A model generated the notes under the pieces. It did not search any database. It had not been told where the DNA came from and saw only the letters and a list, made by a program, of their open reading frames with translations. From Gammaproteobacteria bacterium (lineage in GTDB: Bacteria; Pseudomonadota; Gammaproteobacteria; Chromatiales; Chromatiaceae), in contig JALORY010000007.1 in the NCBI GenBank assembly GCA_025458675.1, positions 1 through 38,601 of the forward strand: a stretch of 38,601 bases of DNA, in the 5' to 3' direction. A program made the position numbers and the translations under genes. Below, one piece after another: positions 5,186-38,342 of this stretch (positions are counted from its first letter, which is position 1; every line of letters starts with the position of its first letter).

Positions 5186-6367
5186 TCAGTGCGGCTGCAG
5201 CGTGTAGCTGCGAAGGCTCTGTGCGAACTCGGCGAGGGCGCGGATGCCCGTCGCCTCGGCCTGCCGGCACCAGTCCTGTAGCGACTGCAGCAGCGCGTCC
5301 TGGCTCGCGGCGGTCCGCTCCCAGACGTCCTGGAGGCGCCGCCGGTAGTCGACGACCGTCGCCAGCGTCGGGCTGCGCTCGAGCAGTTGCGCCAGGCGCT
5401 CGCGGCCGCGCGCGTCCAGCCGGCCCTCGGCGCGGGTGAGCAGGCGCCGCGCCTGCCGGTAGGCCCTGCGGCAGGCGGCGTCCTCGCCGCACAGCTCCTT
5501 GCGGCTCACCGGCCGGATCACGTCGTGCGCATACTGCGCCAGCACGTGCATGCGGTTGGCGATCACGGCCTTGACGGTGTCGAGATCGACGGTCGTCTTG
5601 CCGGCCGCGCGGTGCGGCGTGGGCGCCACGCGCCGCACGGTCGCGAGCCCGAGCCCGGCGAGGAGGCGGATGTACAGCCAGCCGATGTCGAACTCCCACT
5701 TCCGGCTCGACAGTCTCGCCGAGCTCGGGAACGCGTGGTGGTTGTTGTGGAGCTCCTCGCCGCCGATGAGGATGCCCCAGGGCGAGATGTTCGTCGCGGC
5801 GTCCGGCGACTCGAAGTTGCGGTAGCCCCAGTAGTGGCCGATGCCGTTGATCACGCCGGCGGCCCAGAACGGGATCCAGATCATCTGCACGGCCCAGATC
5901 GCGACACCGGGAATGCCGAACAGGGCGAAGTCGATCAGCAGCATCAGGGCGGGGCCCTGCCAGCGCAGTGCGCCGTAGACGTGACGCTCCAGCCAGTCGT
6001 CGGGAGTGCCGTGGCTGTAACGCGCGACGAGCGCCGCGTCGCCCGCGGCCTGGCGGTACAGCTCCGCGCCTTCCCACAGCACCTTGCGCAGCCCGAGCAC
6101 CTGCGGGCTGTGGGGGTCCTCTGGCGTCTCGCAGCGCGCGTGGTGCCGGCGATGGATCGCTACCCACTCGGCCGTCACCATCCCGGTCGTCAGCCACAGC
6201 CAGAGCCGGAAGAAGTGCGACACCGCCGGGTGCAGGTCGAGTGCGCGGTGCGCCTGCGCGCGGTGCAGGAAGATCGTGACCGCCGCGATGGTGACGTGGG
6301 TGAGCGCCAGAGTGACGAGCACGAGCTGCCACCACGAGAGATCGAGGAGACCGTCGACGAGGAACAT
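5186..6367 (-). CDS. delta-9 type fatty acid desaturase, long form with C-terminal extension
   Basis: A membrane di-iron desaturase that introduces a cis double bond into acyl chains (acyl-CoA or phospholipid-bound, by analogy with Pseudomonas DesA/DesB), adjusting membrane fluidity. The product is 393 residues. The three histidine boxes are intact: HRAQAH (35-40), HRRHH (72-76) and HNNHH (207-211). Hydrophobic segments lie at about 13-34, 52-70 and 139-165. I chose the ATG at 6367 (MFLVDGLLDLSWW); the frame runs further upstream but there it overlaps the divergent ABC gene. Residues from about 240 on form a soluble, arginine-rich extension, and its end (LQDVWERTAAS and LQDWCRQAEATGIRAL) recalls the C-terminus of ISL3-type transposases. 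Similar long desaturases are common in gammaproteobacteria, so this is probably not a recent fusion. Confidence 0.9.
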   Translation of the reverse strand: MFLVDGLLDLSWWQLVLVTLALTHVTIAAVTIFLHRAQAHRALDLHPAVSHFFRLWLWLTTGMVTAEWVAIHRRHHARCETPEDPHSPQVLGLRKVLWEGAELYRQAAGDAALVARYSHGTPDDWLERHVYGALRWQGPALMLLIDFALFGIPGVAIWAVQMIWIPFWAAGVINGIGHYWGYRNFESPDAATNISPWGILIGGEELHNNHHAFPSSARLSSRKWEFDIGWLYIRLLAGLGLATVRRVAPTPHRAAGKTTVDLDTVKAVIANRMHVLAQYAHDVIRPVSRKELCGEDAACRRAYRQARRLLTRAEGRLDARGRERLAQLLERSPTLATVVDYRRRLQDVWERTAASQDALLQSLQDWCRQAEATGIRALAEFAQSLRSYTLQPH

Positions 6368-6479
6368 GGGGTGCCGGGAGAAGCCGCGTGGGATCGCCGG
6401 TCCACTATACCCGCGGCCCCGTGATGCGGCCATCGCGGCCGGCTTGAGGCCCCCGGGCGCCGCCGGTATCGTCGTCGCC

Positions 6480-7199
6480 ATGCCGCCCCTGCTCGAAGTC
6501 AGCCAGCTTGAGCGCCGTGACGCGGGCCGGGTGCGCCTCGCCGGCGTCAGTTTCACGGTGGCGCAGGGCGAGGTCGTCGGCCTGCTCGGTCTCAACGGCG
6601 CGGGCAAGTCCACGACGCTTGCGCTGATCGCGGGCGCGCTGGCCCCATCGGCCGGCAGGGTGCTGCTGGACGGGCGGGACCTCGCCACCGCGCCGCACGC
6701 CCTGCGCGCCTGCATCGGCTTCCTGCCCGAGCCGCCGCCGCTCTACCCCGACTTCACCGTGGACGAATTCCTGCGCTTCGCGGCGCGGCTCCGGGGCATG
6801 GACCGTGCTGCGGCCCGGACGGCGGCGACCCGCGTGCGCGAGCGCTGCGGTCTGGCGCAGGTCGGCCGCCGGCTGATCGGACAGCTGTCGAAGGGGTACC
6901 GCCAGCGCGTCGGCCTCGCGCAGGCGATCGTTCACGACCCGCCCCTCGTTCTGCTCGACGAGCCGACGGCCGGTCTCGATCCCGCGCAGTGCCGCGAGGC
7001 CCGCGAGCTCATCGCGGAGCTCGGGCGCGAGCGGGCGGTCCTGTTCTCCAGCCACCTGCTCGACGAAGTGGAGCGCGTCTGCACGCGTGTCGAGGTGCTG
7101 CACGAGGGCCGGCCCGCCGGCGGCTTCGCGCTGCGCGCCGACGGGGACAGTGCGGGCCTCGAGGCGCGATTCCACGCGCTGACCGGGGGCGCCGGATGA
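6480..7199 (+). CDS. ABC transporter ATP-binding protein, GldA-like
   Basis: The 239-residue ATPase subunit of an ABC-2 type transporter. Visible motifs are Walker A GLNGAGKST (37-45), signature LSKGYRQR (136-143), Walker B LVLLDE (156-161), D-loop following EPTAGLDP, and the switch His in SSHLLDE (H192). The start is the ATG at 6480 (MPPLLEVSQL). The gene lies 112 bases from the divergent desaturase. Its stop overlaps the next start (ATGA), so it is translationally coupled to the fused permease/GldG gene. The order ATPase, permease, GldG, DUF4340 is typical of uncharacterised Gld-like transporters widespread outside gliding bacteria. The substrate is unknown. Confidence 0.93.
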   Translation: MPPLLEVSQLERRDAGRVRLAGVSFTVAQGEVVGLLGLNGAGKSTTLALIAGALAPSAGRVLLDGRDLATAPHALRACIGFLPEPPPLYPDFTVDEFLRFAARLRGMDRAAARTAATRVRERCGLAQVGRRLIGQLSKGYRQRVGLAQAIVHDPPLVLLDEPTAGLDPAQCREARELIAELGRERAVLFSSHLLDEVERVCTRVEVLHEGRPAGGFALRADGDSAGLEARFHALTGGAG

Positions 7200-30416: not shown

Positions 30417-31286
30417 TCAGCGCCCCGCGTAGACCCGATCGCCGCTCGTGAACTGCCACGTGCGGGTGATCTCGAGGACGTCGGTGTCCTTGCGGATCTC
30501 GGGGGGAAACGGTGCGTAGGGCGCGGCGAGTCGGACGATCCGTATTGCGGCGTCGTCCAGCACCTTCTGTCCCGACGAGCGCACCAGGCGGACGTTCTCC
30601 AAGCTGCCGTCCGCGCGCACGGAGACGTGCAGGATGAGGTCGCCGTAGAGCTTGCGCCGCTTCGCCTCGTCCGGGTAGTTGAGGTTGCCGACGCGCTCGA
30701 CCTTCTGTCGCCACGTGTCGAGGTACGCGGCGAAGCGGTACTCCCGCGTGCTCGCGTTGATGGAGCGCCGCCGCGAGTCGCCACTGGGAGACTGGCTGCG
30801 CCGGTCGATCTCGGCCGTCAGGCGGTCGATCTCGAGCTGCGTGCTGGCGAGCAGCGAGCCGATGTCGGTGCGGCGTCGCGCCTCGCGGGGAGGTTCCTGC
30901 GGGGCGGCGGGCGTGGCCTCGCGCGGTGCAGACGGCGCGGCCAGTACCTGCGGGACGGGGAGCGGGGGCGGCACCTCGCGCAGGCGTGGCTCGACGAGCT
31001 CGGGCGGAGGCGCGGGAGGCGGTCCCGCGGGCGTCACGACTTCCGGGGCCTTCTGGAGGGCTCCGCCCGCCTGGCTGACCTGGGCGAGGGCCTCCGCGTC
31101 CTTCGGCGCCTCTGTCGTCGGTGCCCGCGGCCGAACGACCGTGACCTCCAGCAGCCGGTCGGGGCTGGAGCGCGGCTCGCGCGGCAGCTCGAAGCCGGCG
31201 CCGAGGAGGATCAGCGCGTGGACCGCGACGGCCGCGAACAGCGCGTAGGTGAGCGGGTCGTGACCCTCGAGCGTGGCGGTGCGCAT
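30417..31286 (-). CDS. TonB-like energy transducer
   Basis: A 289-residue protein with the TonB layout: one N-terminal membrane anchor (LTYALFAAVAVHALILLGAGF, 12-32), a proline-rich periplasmic spacer (about 85-140, such as PPPAPPPE and VPPPLPVPQ), a short coiled stretch, then a C-terminal TonB domain from about 200. The domain contains LNYPDEAKRRKLYGDLILHV and QKVLDDAAIRIVRLAAPY. It matches the position of tonB3 in Pseudomonas (between gshB and algH), which has been linked to twitching motility there. No exbB-exbD is adjacent. The start is ATG at 31286, sharing one base with the gshB stop. Confidence 0.88.
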   Translation of the reverse strand: MRTATLEGHDPLTYALFAAVAVHALILLGAGFELPREPRSSPDRLLEVTVVRPRAPTTEAPKDAEALAQVSQAGGALQKAPEVVTPAGPPPAPPPELVEPRLREVPPPLPVPQVLAAPSAPREATPAAPQEPPREARRRTDIGSLLASTQLEIDRLTAEIDRRSQSPSGDSRRRSINASTREYRFAAYLDTWRQKVERVGNLNYPDEAKRRKLYGDLILHVSVRADGSLENVRLVRSSGQKVLDDAAIRIVRLAAPYAPFPPEIRKDTDVLEITRTWQFTSGDRVYAGR

Positions 31287-32245
31287 CACCGGCCTCGTCG
31301 CGCGAGCTGCGTGCCGACGCACTCGATGAGCTGTCCGGCGATGTCCAGGCCGTAGGCCGCGTCGAGCTCGCGAATGCAGGTCGGGCTCGTGATGTTCACC
31401 TCCGTCAGCCAGTCGCCGATCACGTCGATTCCGGCGAACAGCACGCCGCGCTCGCGCAGCACCGGGCCGACCCGGGCGGCGATCCAGCGGTCGCGCTCGC
31501 TGAGCGCCACCCCGTGCCCGGTGCCGCCGGCCGCGAGGTTGCCGCGGGTCTCGCCCGCCTTGGGCACCCGGGCAAGGGCGTAGGGGACCGCCTCGCCGTC
31601 GATCAGCAGGATGCGCTTGTCGCCCTCGCGGATCTCCGGGATGTAGCGCTGCGCCAGGGCGTAGCGGGTGCCGTCGCCGGTCAGGGTCTCGAAGATCACG
31701 TTGCGGTTGGGGTCGTCGCTGCGTACCCGGAAGATCGACTGGCCGCCCATCGCATCGAGCGGCTTGATCACCACGTCGCCCTGCTCGTCGAGGAACGCGG
31801 CGAGGGCGGCGCAGTCCCGCGTCACCCGCGCCGGCACGCAGCACTCGGGGAACCACGCGGTCGCGAGCTTTTCGTTGAGGTCGCGCAGCGCCGCCGGCCG
31901 GTTGACCACGAGCGTGCCGTGCCGCTCCGCGAGCTCGAGCAGCTGCGTGGCGTGCACGTACTCCATGTCGACCGGCGGGTCCTTGCGCATGAGCACCGCC
32001 GGGAGGGCGTCGAGCGGCGCGACGCGCTCCGGCCCGAGCGTGTACCAGTGCTCCTTCGCGTCGCGCACCTGCACCGGGCGCATGCGCGCGTGGCAGCGGC
32101 CGTCGGCGACGAAGAGGTCCGCCATCTCCATGTACCAGAGCGGCCAGCCACGGGCCTGCGCCGCGAGCATCATGGCGAAGGTGCTATCTTTGTGCGGCTT
32201 GATCGTGGCGATGGGATCCATCACCACGCCGAGATCGAATGGCAT
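31286..32245 (-). CDS. gshB: glutathione synthetase
   Basis: An ATP-grasp enzyme joining gamma-glutamylcysteine and glycine. The product is 319 residues, the family length. It starts MPFDLGVVMDPIATIKPHKD. Substrate and ATP segments include VLMRKDPPVDMEYV, VIKPLDAMGGQSIFR, VPKAGETRGNLAAGGTG and TEVNITSPTCIREL. The ATG at 32245 was chosen because the very long open frame upstream is antisense to the next gene and has no gshB similarity. It is the first gene of the gshB-tonB-algH-ruvX-pyr run and is divergent, across 93 GC-rich bases, from the ChpA-like gene. In Pseudomonas the divergent neighbour is pilG. Confidence 0.97.
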   Translation of the reverse strand: MPFDLGVVMDPIATIKPHKDSTFAMMLAAQARGWPLWYMEMADLFVADGRCHARMRPVQVRDAKEHWYTLGPERVAPLDALPAVLMRKDPPVDMEYVHATQLLELAERHGTLVVNRPAALRDLNEKLATAWFPECCVPARVTRDCAALAAFLDEQGDVVIKPLDAMGGQSIFRVRSDDPNRNVIFETLTGDGTRYALAQRYIPEIREGDKRILLIDGEAVPYALARVPKAGETRGNLAAGGTGHGVALSERDRWIAARVGPVLRERGVLFAGIDVIGDWLTEVNITSPTCIRELDAAYGLDIAGQLIECVGTQLARRGR

Positions 32246-32338
32246 CGCAGGGCCCCGACGCGTGGCGGTTCGCGCGATTGTGGGCGGCGCCCCCGGCAAC
32301 GGCAAGGCGGCCGGCCCGGCCGACACGGAGGACTCGCA

Positions 32339-34930
32339 GTGCAGAACCCGTCCGCTTCCGATTACCTGGACGTGCTCGGCGCCGAGCTGGTGGAGCACCT
32401 GCGTCGCGCCAAGGCCGCCCTCGAGCCGGTCGGCAGCCGCGCAGTGGGAGACCTCGGGGCCGCGGTGTGCGCGGCGGAGGTCGGGCAGGCGCTCGCGGTG
32501 CTTCGCCCGCTGGGACTCGAGCTGCTGGGGATGCTGGCCGAGGACCTCGCGCGCCTGGCGGCGTCCCTCGAGTCGCAGCCCGAGGCGCGCCGGGTGGAGT
32601 TGGTCGGCCTGCTCCGCCACGGCATCGACCAGCTGCGGGACGGCATCGAGCGGCGCGCGCTCGGCCGGCCCGAGGGCGCTTGGGCGGTGATCGCCGTGCT
32701 CAACGAGCTGCGCGCCGCGCTCGGCGGTGCGCTGGTTTCGCAGGCGCGCCTCTTCGCACCCGACCTCGAGGCGGAGCTCGCCGGGCTCGCCGCGCAGCCG
32801 GGCGCGCCGCACCCCGAGTTCGCCGACGTGGCGCGGGGCGAGCGCATCGTCCTGCACCGCGCGATGTATCTCTGGTACAGCAACCGGGAGCCCGAGCGCG
32901 CGCTGCGCAAGCTGCGCCGCGTCGCACAGACGATGCGCCGCGTGGCGGGCAGCGCGCTCCTGCAGCGCCTGTTCCTGGTGCTCGAGGCCGTCGCGGTGGG
33001 CGCGAGCGAGCAGGTCGGTCCGCCCACCCAGGCGCTGCGTCACCTGCTGCTGCAGGTGGACGCGCTGCTCAAGCTCGGCGCCGAGGGCGGCGAGGCGGCG
33101 GTCACCGCCGCGGTGCCCCCGGCGCTGATGCGCAACCTGCTGTTCCAGGTCGGCTCGTGCGGGTCCGTGCACCGCATCGTGCAGTCCGTTCGGCGCGGCG
33201 CCGACCTTCGGCTGCTCAGCATCAGCGGTTTCGACGGGCGCGAGGCGCTCGCGCCGCTGCTGCGCGAGGAGATCGCGCGCGTGCAGCGGCTGCTCGACGA
33301 GCACCTCGGCGGTCAGCCGGGCCCCCTGGGCGGTCTCGCCGAAGCCCTGCAGAACCTCTCCGACGCGCTCGGGCTTGCCCAGACGGGGGAATTGCGCCGG
33401 CAGCTCGAATCGCCGCTCGCCGCGTTGTCGCGGGCGAGGGAGGCGGGCGTGGCGCCGACCGAGGCCCTGGCCGCGCTGCAGGCGGCGCTGGTCACGATCG
33501 ACGGCGAGCTGCGCCAGGGCGTGTTCGCGCCGCCCGAGGATCACGCCCTGCCCGCCGCGCTGCCTCCGCCGGTCGAGCCGTTCGAGGAGGTCGAGGTCGT
33601 CGACCGTCGCGCGGCGCACGACGGCGCGGACTTCGCGATGCCGGCGGAGCTGTCCGCCGCCGAGTCGCCGACCGACGTCGCGGCGGTGACGGCCGATGCG
33701 CTGCCTGCCCCGGTGGAGGCTTTCGACTTCCCCGCGTTGCCCGACCTCGCCGCGACGGATTCGGCGCAGGCGGCCGCTCTCGAGGCGCTGGACGAGGACA
33801 TCCGGGAGGTCTTCCTCGAGGAGGCGTCGGAGCGCGTCGCGGCCCTGCGCGAGGCCTACGTGAGCTGGTCGGCGCAGCCGGAGGACGAGCAGGAGCTCGC
33901 GACGGTCCTGCGCCTTCTCGGGGAGCTCAAGTCGACGGGCCGGCTCGTCGGCGCGCACACCCTGAGCGAGGTCTGCTGGGTCCTGCAGGCGGCGCTCGAG
34001 CGCTGCCGCGACCTCGCGCTGCCGCTCGGCGAGGCGGTCCTCGACGCCCTGGATCAGGGAATCGAGGCGGTGGACAGCCTGGTCGCGGCGCACGTCACGG
34101 GCGCGCCGGTCGCCGACGACCCGCGCGTCGTCGAGCAGCGGCTCTACGCGCTGCTGGCGTCCGACCCCGCAAAGCTCGAGCGCGACGCCGTGGCGCGCCC
34201 GCGCGCCCGCCGCCCCACACCTCCCCGTGGTGCGCCCGACCCCGACGCCGAGGACCTCCTCGCGGCGGCCGACGTGAGCGTCGCGGACATCCTCGCGGAC
34301 GAGGCGGACGACCTGGTCGAGATCCTGGCGGAGGGCCTCGAGGGCCTGGCGCGGCGGCCCGACGGCGTCGGCTGGCTCGTCGAGATGCGCCGGGCCCTGC
34401 GCTCGCTCTCGGCCACTGCGCGCTACGCCCAGTCGCTGCAGCTCGCCGCGCTGAGTGACGCGCTGGAAGGCGTCCTGGCGCGCGCCGCCGACGGCGCCGG
34501 CGCGCTGGGTGCCGAAGCGCGCGCCCTGGCCGACGAGACGCTCGAGGTGCTGCGCGCGGCCGTGGACGCGCTGCGCGGGCGGCGGACCCCGCCGGTCCCG
34601 CTCGACCTCGTCGACCGCCTGAGGCGGGGTGACACGGGGCAGCTCGCGGACGCCGGCGCGGTCGAGGGCGGCGAGTCCGCGTTGCCCACGGGCCAGGAGG
34701 AGCGGGGCGGCCCGTCGGGCCGGGCGCTGCGCGAGCACGTGACGGCCTTGCGCGACTACGTCGGGCAGCTCGAGGGCATCGTGGCACGCCTCGCCCGCGC
34801 ACCCCAGCGCTCGGCGACCGACGTCGCGGACCGGGCCCGGGCCTTGGCCGACCTGGGCCCCTGCGCCGACGGCATCCACGCCGTCAGCCTCGCGATCGAC
34901 GCCCTGGTCGGCGGGGACCGGCTGGACTGA
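32339..34930 (+). CDS. ChpA N-terminal/FimL-like protein with degenerate Hpt domains
   Basis: An 863-residue soluble, almost entirely helical protein. From my memory of the Pseudomonas proteins, residues 1-400 resemble the N-terminus of ChpA and FimL: the APDLEAEL segment, LRKLRRVAQTMRRV, HLLLQVDALLKL, ALMRNLLFQVG and the REEIARVQRLLDEHL segment can be lined up. A Pro/Ala/Glu-rich linker follows (about 395-480). An Hpt-like domain then has LLGELKSTGRLVGA where active Hpt domains read as His-Thr-Leu-Lys-Gly-Ser; the phospho-accepting His is Gly (G528). A second Hpt-like region (about 650-750) has ALRSLSATAR, with Arg (R688) at the His position. There is no CheA kinase, CheW or receiver domain. 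The start is GTG at 32339 behind GGAGGA. It sits where pilG-to-chpA lies in Pseudomonas. It is probably a twitching-signalling scaffold like FimL. Confidence 0.75.
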   Translation: MQNPSASDYLDVLGAELVEHLRRAKAALEPVGSRAVGDLGAAVCAAEVGQALAVLRPLGLELLGMLAEDLARLAASLESQPEARRVELVGLLRHGIDQLRDGIERRALGRPEGAWAVIAVLNELRAALGGALVSQARLFAPDLEAELAGLAAQPGAPHPEFADVARGERIVLHRAMYLWYSNREPERALRKLRRVAQTMRRVAGSALLQRLFLVLEAVAVGASEQVGPPTQALRHLLLQVDALLKLGAEGGEAAVTAAVPPALMRNLLFQVGSCGSVHRIVQSVRRGADLRLLSISGFDGREALAPLLREEIARVQRLLDEHLGGQPGPLGGLAEALQNLSDALGLAQTGELRRQLESPLAALSRAREAGVAPTEALAALQAALVTIDGELRQGVFAPPEDHALPAALPPPVEPFEEVEVVDRRAAHDGADFAMPAELSAAESPTDVAAVTADALPAPVEAFDFPALPDLAATDSAQAAALEALDEDIREVFLEEASERVAALREAYVSWSAQPEDEQELATVLRLLGELKSTGRLVGAHTLSEVCWVLQAALERCRDLALPLGEAVLDALDQGIEAVDSLVAAHVTGAPVADDPRVVEQRLYALLASDPAKLERDAVARPRARRPTPPRGAPDPDAEDLLAAADVSVADILADEADDLVEILAEGLEGLARRPDGVGWLVEMRRALRSLSATARYAQSLQLAALSDALEGVLARAADGAGALGAEARALADETLEVLRAAVDALRGRRTPPVPLDLVDRLRRGDTGQLADAGAVEGGESALPTGQEERGGPSGRALREHVTALRDYVGQLEGIVARLARAPQRSATDVADRARALADLGPCADGIHAVSLAIDALVGGDRLD

Positions 34931-35076: not shown

Positions 35077-36204
35077 GTGAAGCGCACCACCCGATCTGCC
35101 CTGGCGCTCGGCCTCGCCGCCGCGCTCGCTACCGGCACCGCCTCGGCCTACACGAATCTGTATGCGTTCGGGGACAGCCTCTCCGACAGCGGCAGCGTGT
35201 CCGCGACCGTCGAGTTCCTGACCGGCACCCCGCTGCTCGGTCCGCCCTATGCCGGTCGGGGCTCGAACGGGCCGGTCGCGGTCGAGTACCTCGCCGCGTC
35301 GCTCGGGCTGTCCGCGCTGCCCGCAGGGTCCACGGTCACCCTCCCCCCGCCGCCGCCCGGCGGCACCACGATCACGGTGCCTCTCGGGGGCACGAACTAC
35401 GCCCAGTTCGCCGGCGCCACCGCCAACATAACGACCGTGAGCGGGAACACCTACGACACCTACCTCGCGTCGAACCCGACCTTCGCCGCGGCCGGCGGGG
35501 CGATCTTCAACGGCCACGCCGGCATCGACAAGCAGGTGGCCGCCTTTGCCGCCGCCCTCGGCGTGGGGGGCGCGGACCCGAAGGCGCTTTACTCGGTGTG
35601 GGGCGGGGCGAACGACGCGTACATCGCGCTCGAGGACCCGGCCTTCCTGTTGCTCGCGGCCGGCGACCCGGCGGCCGCGGCGGGGGTGATCTTCGCGACC
35701 GCGACCGAGTCGGCCGGCAACGTCGGCGAGTCGGTGGCCGCCCTGGCCGCCCTCGGCGCCCGGCACTTCCTCGTGCCCAACATTCCGGACCTCGGGCTGA
35801 CCCCGACCGCCGTGAGCCAGGGCCCCGCGGCGGTCGCGGCGCTGTCGCTCTTCACGGACGTGTTCAACGCGACGCTCGCCGGCATCCTCGATGCGCTCGA
35901 GGACACCGGGCTCGACGTGGTGCCATTCGACGTCGAGGCGCTGCTCAACCAGGTCGCCGCCACCCCTGACGCCTTCGGCTTCGTGAACACCACGAGCCAG
36001 TGCATCCTCGAGTTCGAGGCCTGCGCCGCGTCGGGCTTCCGCTACCTCTTCTGGGACGGCGTCCACCCGACGACCTACGCGCACTCGATCCTCGGCGGCC
36101 TGTTTGCCCGCGCGGTTCCCGAGCCGGCGACCGTGCTGGTGTTCCTGCTCGGCCTGGCGCTGATCGCGCGGCGCTTCGCCGGTCGGGCGGTCAGGGCAGC
36201 CTGA
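35077..36204 (+). CDS. PEP-CTERM-anchored GDSL-family esterase/lipase
   Basis: A 375-residue exported SGNH-type hydrolase. The signal peptide (ALALGLAAALATGTASA) ends near residue 24. Block I is AFGDSLSDSGS with nucleophile S34. Block III is WGGANDAY (G177, N179). IPDLGLTPT resembles the segment usual in bacterial GDSL lipases. Block V is DGVHPTTYAH with D327 and H330. The catalytic set is complete, so activity on ester bonds (lipids, or acetyl groups of polysaccharide) is plausible. The C-terminus is a PEP-CTERM signal: PEP at 348-350, a hydrophobic helix (VLVFLLGLALIA), then RRFAGR. By family knowledge it is processed by an exosortase. The start is GTG at 35077 with AGGAG upstream. It converges on rsmE with 45 bases between. 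Confidence 0.92.
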   Translation: MKRTTRSALALGLAAALATGTASAYTNLYAFGDSLSDSGSVSATVEFLTGTPLLGPPYAGRGSNGPVAVEYLAASLGLSALPAGSTVTLPPPPPGGTTITVPLGGTNYAQFAGATANITTVSGNTYDTYLASNPTFAAAGGAIFNGHAGIDKQVAAFAAALGVGGADPKALYSVWGGANDAYIALEDPAFLLLAAGDPAAAAGVIFATATESAGNVGESVAALAALGARHFLVPNIPDLGLTPTAVSQGPAAVAALSLFTDVFNATLAGILDALEDTGLDVVPFDVEALLNQVAATPDAFGFVNTTSQCILEFEACAASGFRYLFWDGVHPTTYAHSILGGLFARAVPEPATVLVFLLGLALIARRFAGRAVRAA

Positions 36205-36249: not shown

Positions 36250-36978
36250 TCAGCGCAGATCCCCCCACAACGCCTGGATCGCCGCGAGCGCCGCGAGCGG
36301 GGCGGTCTCGGTCCGCAGGATGCGCGGGCCGAGGCGCACGCCGGCGAAGCCGGCCTGCAGTGCCCGTGCCCGCTCCTCCGGCGACAGTCCGCCCTCCGGG
36401 CCGACCAGCAGCGTGAGGTCGCTGCCCGGGGCAGGGAGGTCGGCCAGCGACCGATCGGCCCCGGGGTCGAGGAGGAGTCCGGCGCCGGACGCTCCCGACA
36501 GCCACGCGACGAGCGGCAGCGGCGGGTGCAGGACGGGCAGGCGCCGCCGCCCCGACTGTTCGCACGCGGCGACGAGCACGCCCCGCCAGTGCGCGGCGCG
36601 GCGCTCGCCGCGCGCCGCGTCGAGGCGCACCACGCTGCGCTCCGCGAACAGCGGCTGGACGCCCGCGACGCCGAGCTCGACCGCCTTCTGGATCGCGAAA
36701 TCCATCCGCTCGCCGCGCGAGACCCCGATCGCGAGGTGCAGGCGCAGTGGCGGCGCAGGCTCCGGCTCCCCCGCGGCCTCGACCACCACCCGGGTTCCCT
36801 GGCGTCCCGCGCCGAGCAGCCGCGCCGCGTAGTCGCGGCCGTCGCCGTTGAACAGGATCACCGCGTCGCCGGCGCCGAGGCGCAGGACGCGCGCGAGGTG
36901 GGCCGCCGCGTCGCCGGGCAGCTCGAGCGTGCGGCCTGCGGCGAGCGGCGAGTCGACGTAGACGCGGGGCGTGCGCAC
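36250..36978 (-). CDS. rsmE: 16S rRNA m3U1498 methyltransferase
   Basis: A SPOUT-class methyltransferase that modifies U1498 of 16S rRNA in the 30S subunit. The 242-residue product has an N-terminal PUA-like part with HLARVLRLGAGD (27-38) and the knotted catalytic domain with GVSRGERMDFAIQKAVELG, FAERSVVRL, LVGPEGGLSPEE and ILRTETAPLAAL. The start is taken as GTG at 36978 (MRTPRVYVDSPL), two bases after the bioA stop; the frame is open through bioA but without similarity. rsmE-bioA is the same order as in Pseudomonas, where it lies just beyond the pil-chp cluster. Confidence 0.96.
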   Translation of the reverse strand: MRTPRVYVDSPLAAGRTLELPGDAAAHLARVLRLGAGDAVILFNGDGRDYAARLLGAGRQGTRVVVEAAGEPEPAPPLRLHLAIGVSRGERMDFAIQKAVELGVAGVQPLFAERSVVRLDAARGERRAAHWRGVLVAACEQSGRRRLPVLHPPLPLVAWLSGASGAGLLLDPGADRSLADLPAPGSDLTLLVGPEGGLSPEERARALQAGFAGVRLGPRILRTETAPLAALAAIQALWGDLR

Positions 36979-36980
36979 GA

Positions 36981-38342
36981 TCAGTCCCGCGTCGCGAGGT
37001 CGATGCCCTCCGCCGCCACGCCGGCGAGCCAGCGGATCTGCTCGGGCGTGATCACGTAGGGCGGCATGAAGTAGACGACGTTGCCGAGCGGGCGCAGCAG
37101 CGCGCCGCGCGCGAGCGCGTGCCGGTAGACGCGCAGGCCGCGCCGCTCCTGCCAAGGGTAGGGAGTGCGCTTCGCGCGGTCCGCGACCATCTCGATCGCG
37201 AGGATCATCCCCGTCTGGCGCACCTCGCCGACGTGCGGGTGGTCCGCGAGCGGCGCCGCGGCCTCGGCCATGGCCCTCGCCAGCGCGGCATTCGCCTCGA
37301 TCACGCGGTCCTGCGCGAAGATGTCCAGCGTCGCCAGCGCGGCCCGGCAGGCGAGCGCGTTGCCGGTGTAGCTGTGCGAGTGCAGGAAGGCGCGCAGGGT
37401 CGCGTAGTCGTCGTAAAAGGCCTGGTAGACCGACTCGCGGGTGACCACCGCCGACAGCGGGAGATAGCCGCCCGTCAGCCCCTTGGACAGGCACAGGAAG
37501 TCCGGCGTGACGCCGGCCTGCTCGCAGGCGAACAGGGTGCCGGTGCGGCCGAAGCCCACCGCGATCTCGTCGGCGATGAGGTGCACGCCGTGGCGGTCGC
37601 AGGCGTCGCGCAGCAGCGAGAGGTACACGGGGTGGTACATGCGCATCGCCCCCGCGCACTGCACGAGCGGCTCGACGATCACGGCGCAGACCTCGTCCGC
37701 GCGGGCCGCGAGCAGCGCCTCCATGTCGGCGAAGACGCGGCGCGAGTGCGCCTCCCACGACTCGCCCGGCTCGCACGCGTGGCAGTCGGGCGAGGGCGCC
37801 GTCAGCACCTCCATCAGCAGCGGCGCGTAGGTCTCCTTGTAGAGCGCCACGTCGCCCACCGCGAGCGCGCCCAGGGTCTCGCCGTGGTAGCTGTTCGCGA
37901 GGGTCACGAACTTCGTCTTCCGCGGCCGGCCGCAGTTGCGCCAGTAGTGGAAGCTCATCTTGAGCGCGACCTCGACCGCGGACGAGCCGTTGTCCGCATA
38001 GAACACGCGGCCGAGGCCCGGGGGGGCGAGTGCCACCAGGCGCTCCGCGAGCTCGAGCGCCGGGCCGTGCGTGAAGCCGGCCAGGATGACGTGCTCGAGC
38101 TGCTCGAGCTGCTCCCGCACCGCGGCGTTGATGCGGGGGTTGGCGTGGCCGAACAGGTTCACCCACCACGAGCTGATCGCGTCGAGGTAGCGCCGGCCGT
38201 CGAAGTCCTCGAGCCACACGCCCTCGCCGCGGCGGATCGGGACCATCGGCAACTGCTCGTGGTCCTTCATCTGGGTGCAGGGGTGCCAGAGCACCGCGAG
38301 GTCGCGGGCGGCGATGGCGGCGTTGAGATCGGGTCGGCTCAT
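36981..38342 (-). CDS. bioA: adenosylmethionine-8-amino-7-oxononanoate aminotransferase (biotin synthesis)
   Basis: Transfers the amino group of S-adenosylmethionine to KAPA, giving DAPA in biotin synthesis. The 453-residue PLP enzyme has LWHPCTQMKDH (18-28), the AISSWWVNLFGHANP signature (55-69), YADNGSSAVEVALKM, ADEIAVGFGRTG with D258, and the PLP lysine K287 in LSKGLTGGYLPL. The start is ATG at 38342. The 208 bases upstream contain no recognisable BirA operator. Other bio genes are not in the window. Confidence 0.97.
   Translation of the reverse strand: MSRPDLNAAIAARDLAVLWHPCTQMKDHEQLPMVPIRRGEGVWLEDFDGRRYLDAISSWWVNLFGHANPRINAAVREQLEQLEHVILAGFTHGPALELAERLVALAPPGLGRVFYADNGSSAVEVALKMSFHYWRNCGRPRKTKFVTLANSYHGETLGALAVGDVALYKETYAPLLMEVLTAPSPDCHACEPGESWEAHSRRVFADMEALLAARADEVCAVIVEPLVQCAGAMRMYHPVYLSLLRDACDRHGVHLIADEIAVGFGRTGTLFACEQAGVTPDFLCLSKGLTGGYLPLSAVVTRESVYQAFYDDYATLRAFLHSHSYTGNALACRAALATLDIFAQDRVIEANAALARAMAEAAAPLADHPHVGEVRQTGMILAIEMVADRAKRTPYPWQERRGLRVYRHALARGALLRPLGNVVYFMPPYVITPEQIRWLAGVAAEGIDLATRD

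Follow-up and report, generated by a model that had tools for sequence, protein, structure and literature searches.

ChpA is the CheA kinase of the type IV pilus (Tfp) class. In Pseudomonas aeruginosa, FimL is a homologue of the ChpA N-terminus with Gln at both acceptor sites (PMC3019171) and is likewise incapable of normal phosphotransfer, and FimL and ChpA together bring PilG to the cell poles (PMC10519157). In Acinetobacter, positioning of FimV and the pilus needs both FimL and PilG (PMC9596432). The role of those phosphotransfer (Hpt) domains of ChpA that are not phosphorylated was called unknown in a 2025 review (PMC12632253).

We analysed a gammaproteobacterial stretch of 38,601 nucleotides (the window). 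In about 35 loci of related genomes, the pil-chp genes occupy a conserved slot with the order gshB (minus strand), pilG, pilH, pilI, pilJ, chpA, chpC, rsmE (minus strand), then bioA and/or metF, with a chpA product of 1500-2400 aa. The window was described in a preliminary account as carrying a single ChpA-like gene between the same flanks, and the relatives' loci bear out the identity of the slot. Its order is gshB, 93 bp, the ORF of an 863-residue protein (P0001), a GDSL-lipase gene, rsmE and bioA. Searching the window by tblastn with PilG, PilH, PilI, PilJ, ChpA and ChpC matched ChpA from residue 1 to about 880 and otherwise gave just cross-matches with other Hpt domains. The features of the locus are as follows.

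31286..32245, minus strand: gshB, left flank of the pil-chp slot (homology)
32327..32331, plus strand: Shine-Dalgarno sequence GGAGG, 7 nt before the P0001 GTG (sequence)
32339..34930, plus strand: kinase-less ChpA-derived protein P0001, 863 aa, GTG start (Pfam, homology, alignment, tree, tblastn)
32381..33514, plus strand: ChpA/FimL-type N-domain, residues 15-392, three predicted helical (Hpt-like) bundles (profile E 3e-52; AlphaFold pLDDT mostly 75-98)
33524..33730, plus strand: disordered linker, residues 396-464, at the site of the relatives' fourth N-domain bundle (AlphaFold, profiles)
33791..34099, plus strand: Hpt1, residues 485-587, CheA-P1 fold, Gly528 in place of the acceptor His (Pfam, alignment, AlphaFold, PDB matches)
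33920..33922, plus strand: Gly528 codon, Hpt1 phospho-histidine position (alignment)
34268..34573, plus strand: Hpt2, residues 644-745, Arg688 in place of the acceptor His (alignment, AlphaFold, profile)
34400..34402, plus strand: Arg688 codon, Hpt2 phospho-histidine position (alignment)
34712..34927, plus strand: C-terminal helical tail, residues 792-863, low confidence (AlphaFold)
35077..36204, plus strand: GDSL lipase/esterase gene with PEP-CTERM-like end, within the slot (sequence)
36250..36978, minus strand: rsmE, right flank of the slot (homology)
36981..38342, minus strand: bioA, right flank (homology)

The GDSL lipase/esterase gene, whose product ends in a PEP-CTERM-like C-terminal anchor, fills what was the 3' half of the pil-chp slot and was absent from the preliminary description. 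Other arrangements beside gshB were also seen. In one genome of the same class (G108, L039:3410-6410) a PilG-like receiver lies between gshB and rsmE together with a 399-aa protein that by eye resembles a CheB-type methylesterase, and the interval has no ChpA-N match. In two genomes of genus g39 (L081:4722-9266, L082:2359-6561) ChpA is full-length and the residue at its Hpt1 acceptor site is Gln, and a third (L085:16848-17543) has only a PilG-like gene beside gshB, with no ChpA match.

The P0001 frame is long and clean, as first reported. Its 863 codons contain no stop, and GC at the three codon positions (0.85/0.50/0.94) is coding-like for this genome. The GGAGG motif is correctly placed ahead of the GTG at 32339, and in the alignment this start coincides with that of the relatives' ChpA. 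A scan for sigma-70 promoters found no candidate. The resemblance to the ChpA N-terminus was readily recovered, with E 7e-34 against ChpA over residues 14-377 and E 3e-52 against a ChpA N-domain profile built without P0001. N-domain homology, the slot, and Hpt1 and Hpt2 in collinear order with ChpA up to residue 880 or so all place P0001 in the ChpA lineage. Its position within the ChpA-N tree is weakly resolved (SH-aLRT 50, bootstrap 62). Descent from the resident chpA gene, of which P0001 would be an in-place remnant, is the simplest account.

Domain analysis confirmed that both Hpt domains of P0001 are real but dead. Pfam gave a single Hpt match on the protein (residues 487-579, E 8e-10), while the relatives' Hpt2 profile scored 20.9 bits on residues 644-745, where 200 shuffles reached no more than 6.3. 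AlphaFold, run on a 42-row alignment, predicted five consecutive helical bundles (mean pLDDT 78, pTM 0.45): three in the N-domain (about 6-107, 161-258 and 300-392) and confident four-helix bundles for Hpt1 (486-587) and Hpt2 (637-746), with the 396-464 linker disordered and the tail of low confidence. CheA P1 domains ranked among the best PDB matches, with TM-scores by target of 0.77-0.84 and weak Foldseek E-values (0.04-0.1), as a single domain was matched inside a long chain. The Hpt1 acceptor is His in 22 of 23 full-length ChpAs, the remaining one being gapped, and the Hpt2 acceptor is His in 22 of 23, one having no alignable Hpt2. As the preliminary description had proposed, P0001 carries G528 and R688 at these positions, and the GSG motif that follows the first of them is lost too. 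With the folds present and no phospho-histidine at either, P0001 does not qualify as a CheA/ChpA kinase. Bundle 4 of the N-domain is absent, the segment measuring 92 aa against mostly 163-251 aa in relatives. The previously noted lack of a kinase was upheld by Pfam on the protein and tblastn on the window, which contained no dimerisation, ATPase, CheW or receiver domain. The idea that the tail derives from the CheA dimerisation domain found no support, its score being that of shuffled sequence.

Constraint on P0001 was assessed against its relatives. By sequence comparison its divergence is clearly accelerated, with a terminal branch of 2.1 substitutions per site, longer than any other in the N-domain tree. 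P0001 is on average 24% identical to its relatives in the N-domain, 29% in Hpt1 and 20% in Hpt2, where most relatives reach 28-39%, 44-53% and 32-38%, respectively. Constraint is graded: P0001 keeps 53-59% of conserved columns and 12% of variable ones. Intact ChpAs mostly keep 75-98% of conserved positions, compared with about 55% for P0001. Neutral drift along the P0001 branch would be expected to produce 7-34 stops, depending on mutation bias, and none was observed. Part of that branch predates kinase loss, so the stop-free frame supports maintenance short of proving it.

A profile search for ChpA-N across 210 genomes of the Thiocapsa family, to which the window organism belongs, found it in 168, where the ORF was in almost every case 1500-2700 aa long. 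Apparent short ChpAs had other causes: in G039 and G055 the gene is full-length but split by frame, and in G009, G073 and many class-level genomes the ORF runs into a contig end. In all eight genomes of Thiocapsa (genus g24, including Thiocapsa marina 5811 and Thiocapsa sp. UBA6158) the ChpA-N frames span about 730-950 aa, with products of about 730-850 aa. The locus reads gshB, a PilG-like receiver and a kinase-less ChpA-N, with rsmE next in 7 of 8 loci.

L034, L035, L071-L076, L091, L092, beside gshB: two-gene pil-chp remnant of Thiocapsa

The Thiocapsa Hpt1 acceptor is Ser in six genomes and Ala in one, and the domain is mostly deleted in one species. Pairwise dN/dS of ChpA-N averages about 0.39 (N-domain 0.33, tail 0.31; mean dS 0.43), which indicates purifying selection. 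The acceptor Asp of the accompanying PilG-like protein is kept by most though not every species, and the protein's acidic pair is gone in one. The Thiocapsa tail gives an in-register but weak hint of a CheA dimerisation domain. Shared ancestry of P0001 and the Thiocapsa form was considered and discarded, as a single clade of the two was rejected (AU p = 0.002, from 5000 resamplings only); Thiocapsa ChpA-N clusters with full-ChpA relatives in both trees. As judged from these trees, the two reductions are independent. That a second, much-alike reduction arose independently suggests that the front part of ChpA can work without any kinase. We found no description of the Thiocapsa pair of PilG and kinase-less ChpA-N in the literature searched.

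The remainder of the genome was searched for the missing components. The assembly comprises 2.12 Mb in 138 contigs and is 72% complete. It gave no match to the CheA dimerisation domain (PF02895), CheW (PF01584) or the chemoreceptor signalling domain (PF00015). The best PilG match (E 1e-18) is about that obtained in relatives without PilG, from unrelated receivers, compared with 2e-28 for Thiocapsa PilG. FimV, present in 8 of 8 compared relatives, was not found in the 72%-complete assembly. Genes for pilT- and pilU-type ATPases lie in the window itself. At this completeness such absences are suggestive, the chance of missing one relocated cluster being roughly 0.28. The preliminary description had allowed for either loss or relocation of the kinase; loss is what the assembled genome indicates. 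Elsewhere in the window (5186-6715, minus strand), a 509-aa ORF has a fatty-acid desaturase domain (128-331) followed by part of an ISL3-type transposase (384-504); an insertion element has probably fused with the 3' end of the desaturase gene.

We consider it somewhat probable that P0001 is a maintained, non-phosphorylatable ChpA remnant that serves the type IV pilus machinery as a docking scaffold in the manner of FimL. Under this proposal, the slot would have lost pilG-pilH-pilI-pilJ, the kinase half of chpA, and chpC in place, with P0001 remaining. The protein would have been retained as a stand-alone helical scaffold beyond the reach of phosphorylation, whose N-domain could dock a partner at the pilus machinery without phosphate flow. 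A switchable signalling node would so become a fixed positioning part. We infer that P0001 is expressed and, by analogy with FimL, that it has a partner and contributes to pilus positioning. The intact ORF, start and Shine-Dalgarno sequence, the absence of stops, the folded Hpt domains, the graded constraint, the Thiocapsa parallel and the existence of the N-domain as a protein of its own in two other families argue for the scaffold. Failure to find PilG or FimV, the longest branch, the low share of conserved positions kept, and the loss of a bundle 4 that FimL and split ChpA N-parts keep argue against it. The earlier impression that the gene looks maintained thus gained support from the intact gene start, the shortage of stops relative to drift and purifying selection in Thiocapsa, all of it indirect.

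The main rival, given that neither PilG nor FimV turned up in the assembly, is that P0001 lost its function with the operon and is drifting as a decaying relic whose frame happens to be unbroken. The proteins expected to partner P0001 may indeed be gone, along with every chemosensory core domain sought. Decay would also accommodate the long branch and the loss of both acceptors, the GSG motif and bundle 4. It is harder to reconcile with Hpt folds that remain recognisable, constraint still graded by column conservation, and a Shine-Dalgarno sequence and start that survive intact. The missing stops point the same way, tempered by the portion of the branch that is older than the loss. On balance we regard a decaying relic as rather doubtful.

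Comparison with FimL and with naturally split ChpA bears on whether P0001 is one part of a system encoded elsewhere. Three class-level genomes that also carry ChpA contain 552-579 aa ORFs (L093-L095) that we treat as putative FimL from their length and arrangement, and not from any name. In two other gammaproteobacterial families (f33 and f75), ChpA is split into a 556-606 aa N-part and an adjoining 1059-1255 aa part with the Hpt, kinase and receiver domains.

L096:4344-9595, L097:4327-9611, L098:5756-11419, L099:7124-12605: split ChpA loci

The FimL candidates and the split N-parts all consist of the N-domain and end before Hpt1. Most of them gave a direct match to bundle 4, and all have a segment of fitting length. 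P0001 resembles FimL in being a stand-alone ChpA-N-like protein with no kinase, but it lacks bundle 4 and contains Hpt1 and Hpt2, and so by domain content is not FimL. A clade of P0001 with the three FimL candidates was rejected (AU p 0.038), and one of P0001 with a single FimL candidate was not (p 0.10); P0001 falls in the ChpA family. In place of the FimL-type origin floated in the preliminary description, we read P0001 as an in-place ChpA remnant that may function as FimL does.

These systems give some substance to a relocation reading, in which kinase, CheW, PilJ and PilG lie in the unassembled 28% and P0001 works with them, either as the front piece of a split ChpA or as a FimL alongside a complete one. 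The assembly is incomplete and fragmented, the ChpA N-part is a separate gene adjoining the rest in L096-L099, and some genomes have a FimL-like gene apart from ChpA. Against this, contig breaks and frame splits aside, the 210 family genomes show no moved kinase half and, by profile search, no separate FimL. CheA, CheW and chemoreceptor domains would all have to be missing together from 2.12 Mb, and P0001 contains both Hpt domains, unlike the split N-parts and FimL. We judge relocation unlikely. That the contig is a chimera, with the 5' part of chpA fused to foreign sequence, is very improbable even for a fragmented, 72%-complete draft, as the gshB-ORF-rsmE-bioA order is correct on both sides, the ORF has a tail of its own and closes with a stop codon, assembly error does not explain mutated Hpt acceptors, and the concurrent loss of pilG-pilH-pilI-pilJ would require two separate joins.

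If P0001 is a docking scaffold, as we favour, the finding may extend beyond this locus. Tentatively, ChpA-class kinases may have been stripped in place repeatedly to phosphate-free scaffolds whose dead Hpt domains place the pilus machinery, FimL being one outcome of a recurrent process. Reduction of ChpA towards a FimL-like product has occurred more than once. Dead Hpt domains persist without a kinase in both Thiocapsa and the window lineage, which makes a phosphate-independent scaffold role directly testable; the two lineages are natural experiments on kinase-free phosphotransfer domains. A stand-alone ChpA-N-like protein is already known in FimL. What is new is a ChpA remnant devoid of kinase domains, to which Thiocapsa has a conserved counterpart of independent origin.

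P0001 can finally be set against each known system. It shares with ChpA the slot, the conserved start, the N-domain and the Hpt1-Hpt2 order, but is without the P3 dimerisation, ATPase, CheW and receiver domains, bundle 4 and both Hpt acceptors. The Thiocapsa pair has the same slot, a dead Hpt1 and no kinase, CheW or PilJ; unlike the window, Thiocapsa keeps a PilG-like receiver and bundle 4, and has lost the first ~145 residues and Hpt2. Split ChpA of f33 and f75 likewise makes the N-domain its own protein, whereas its kinase part is encoded next door and Hpt1 lies outside the N protein. FimL of Pseudomonas and Acinetobacter is, like P0001, a stand-alone ChpA-N homologue with no acceptor His and no kinase. 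The putative FimL genes L093-L095 lie outside the pil-chp slot, keep bundle 4 and have no Hpt1, while P0001 shows the reverse on each point.
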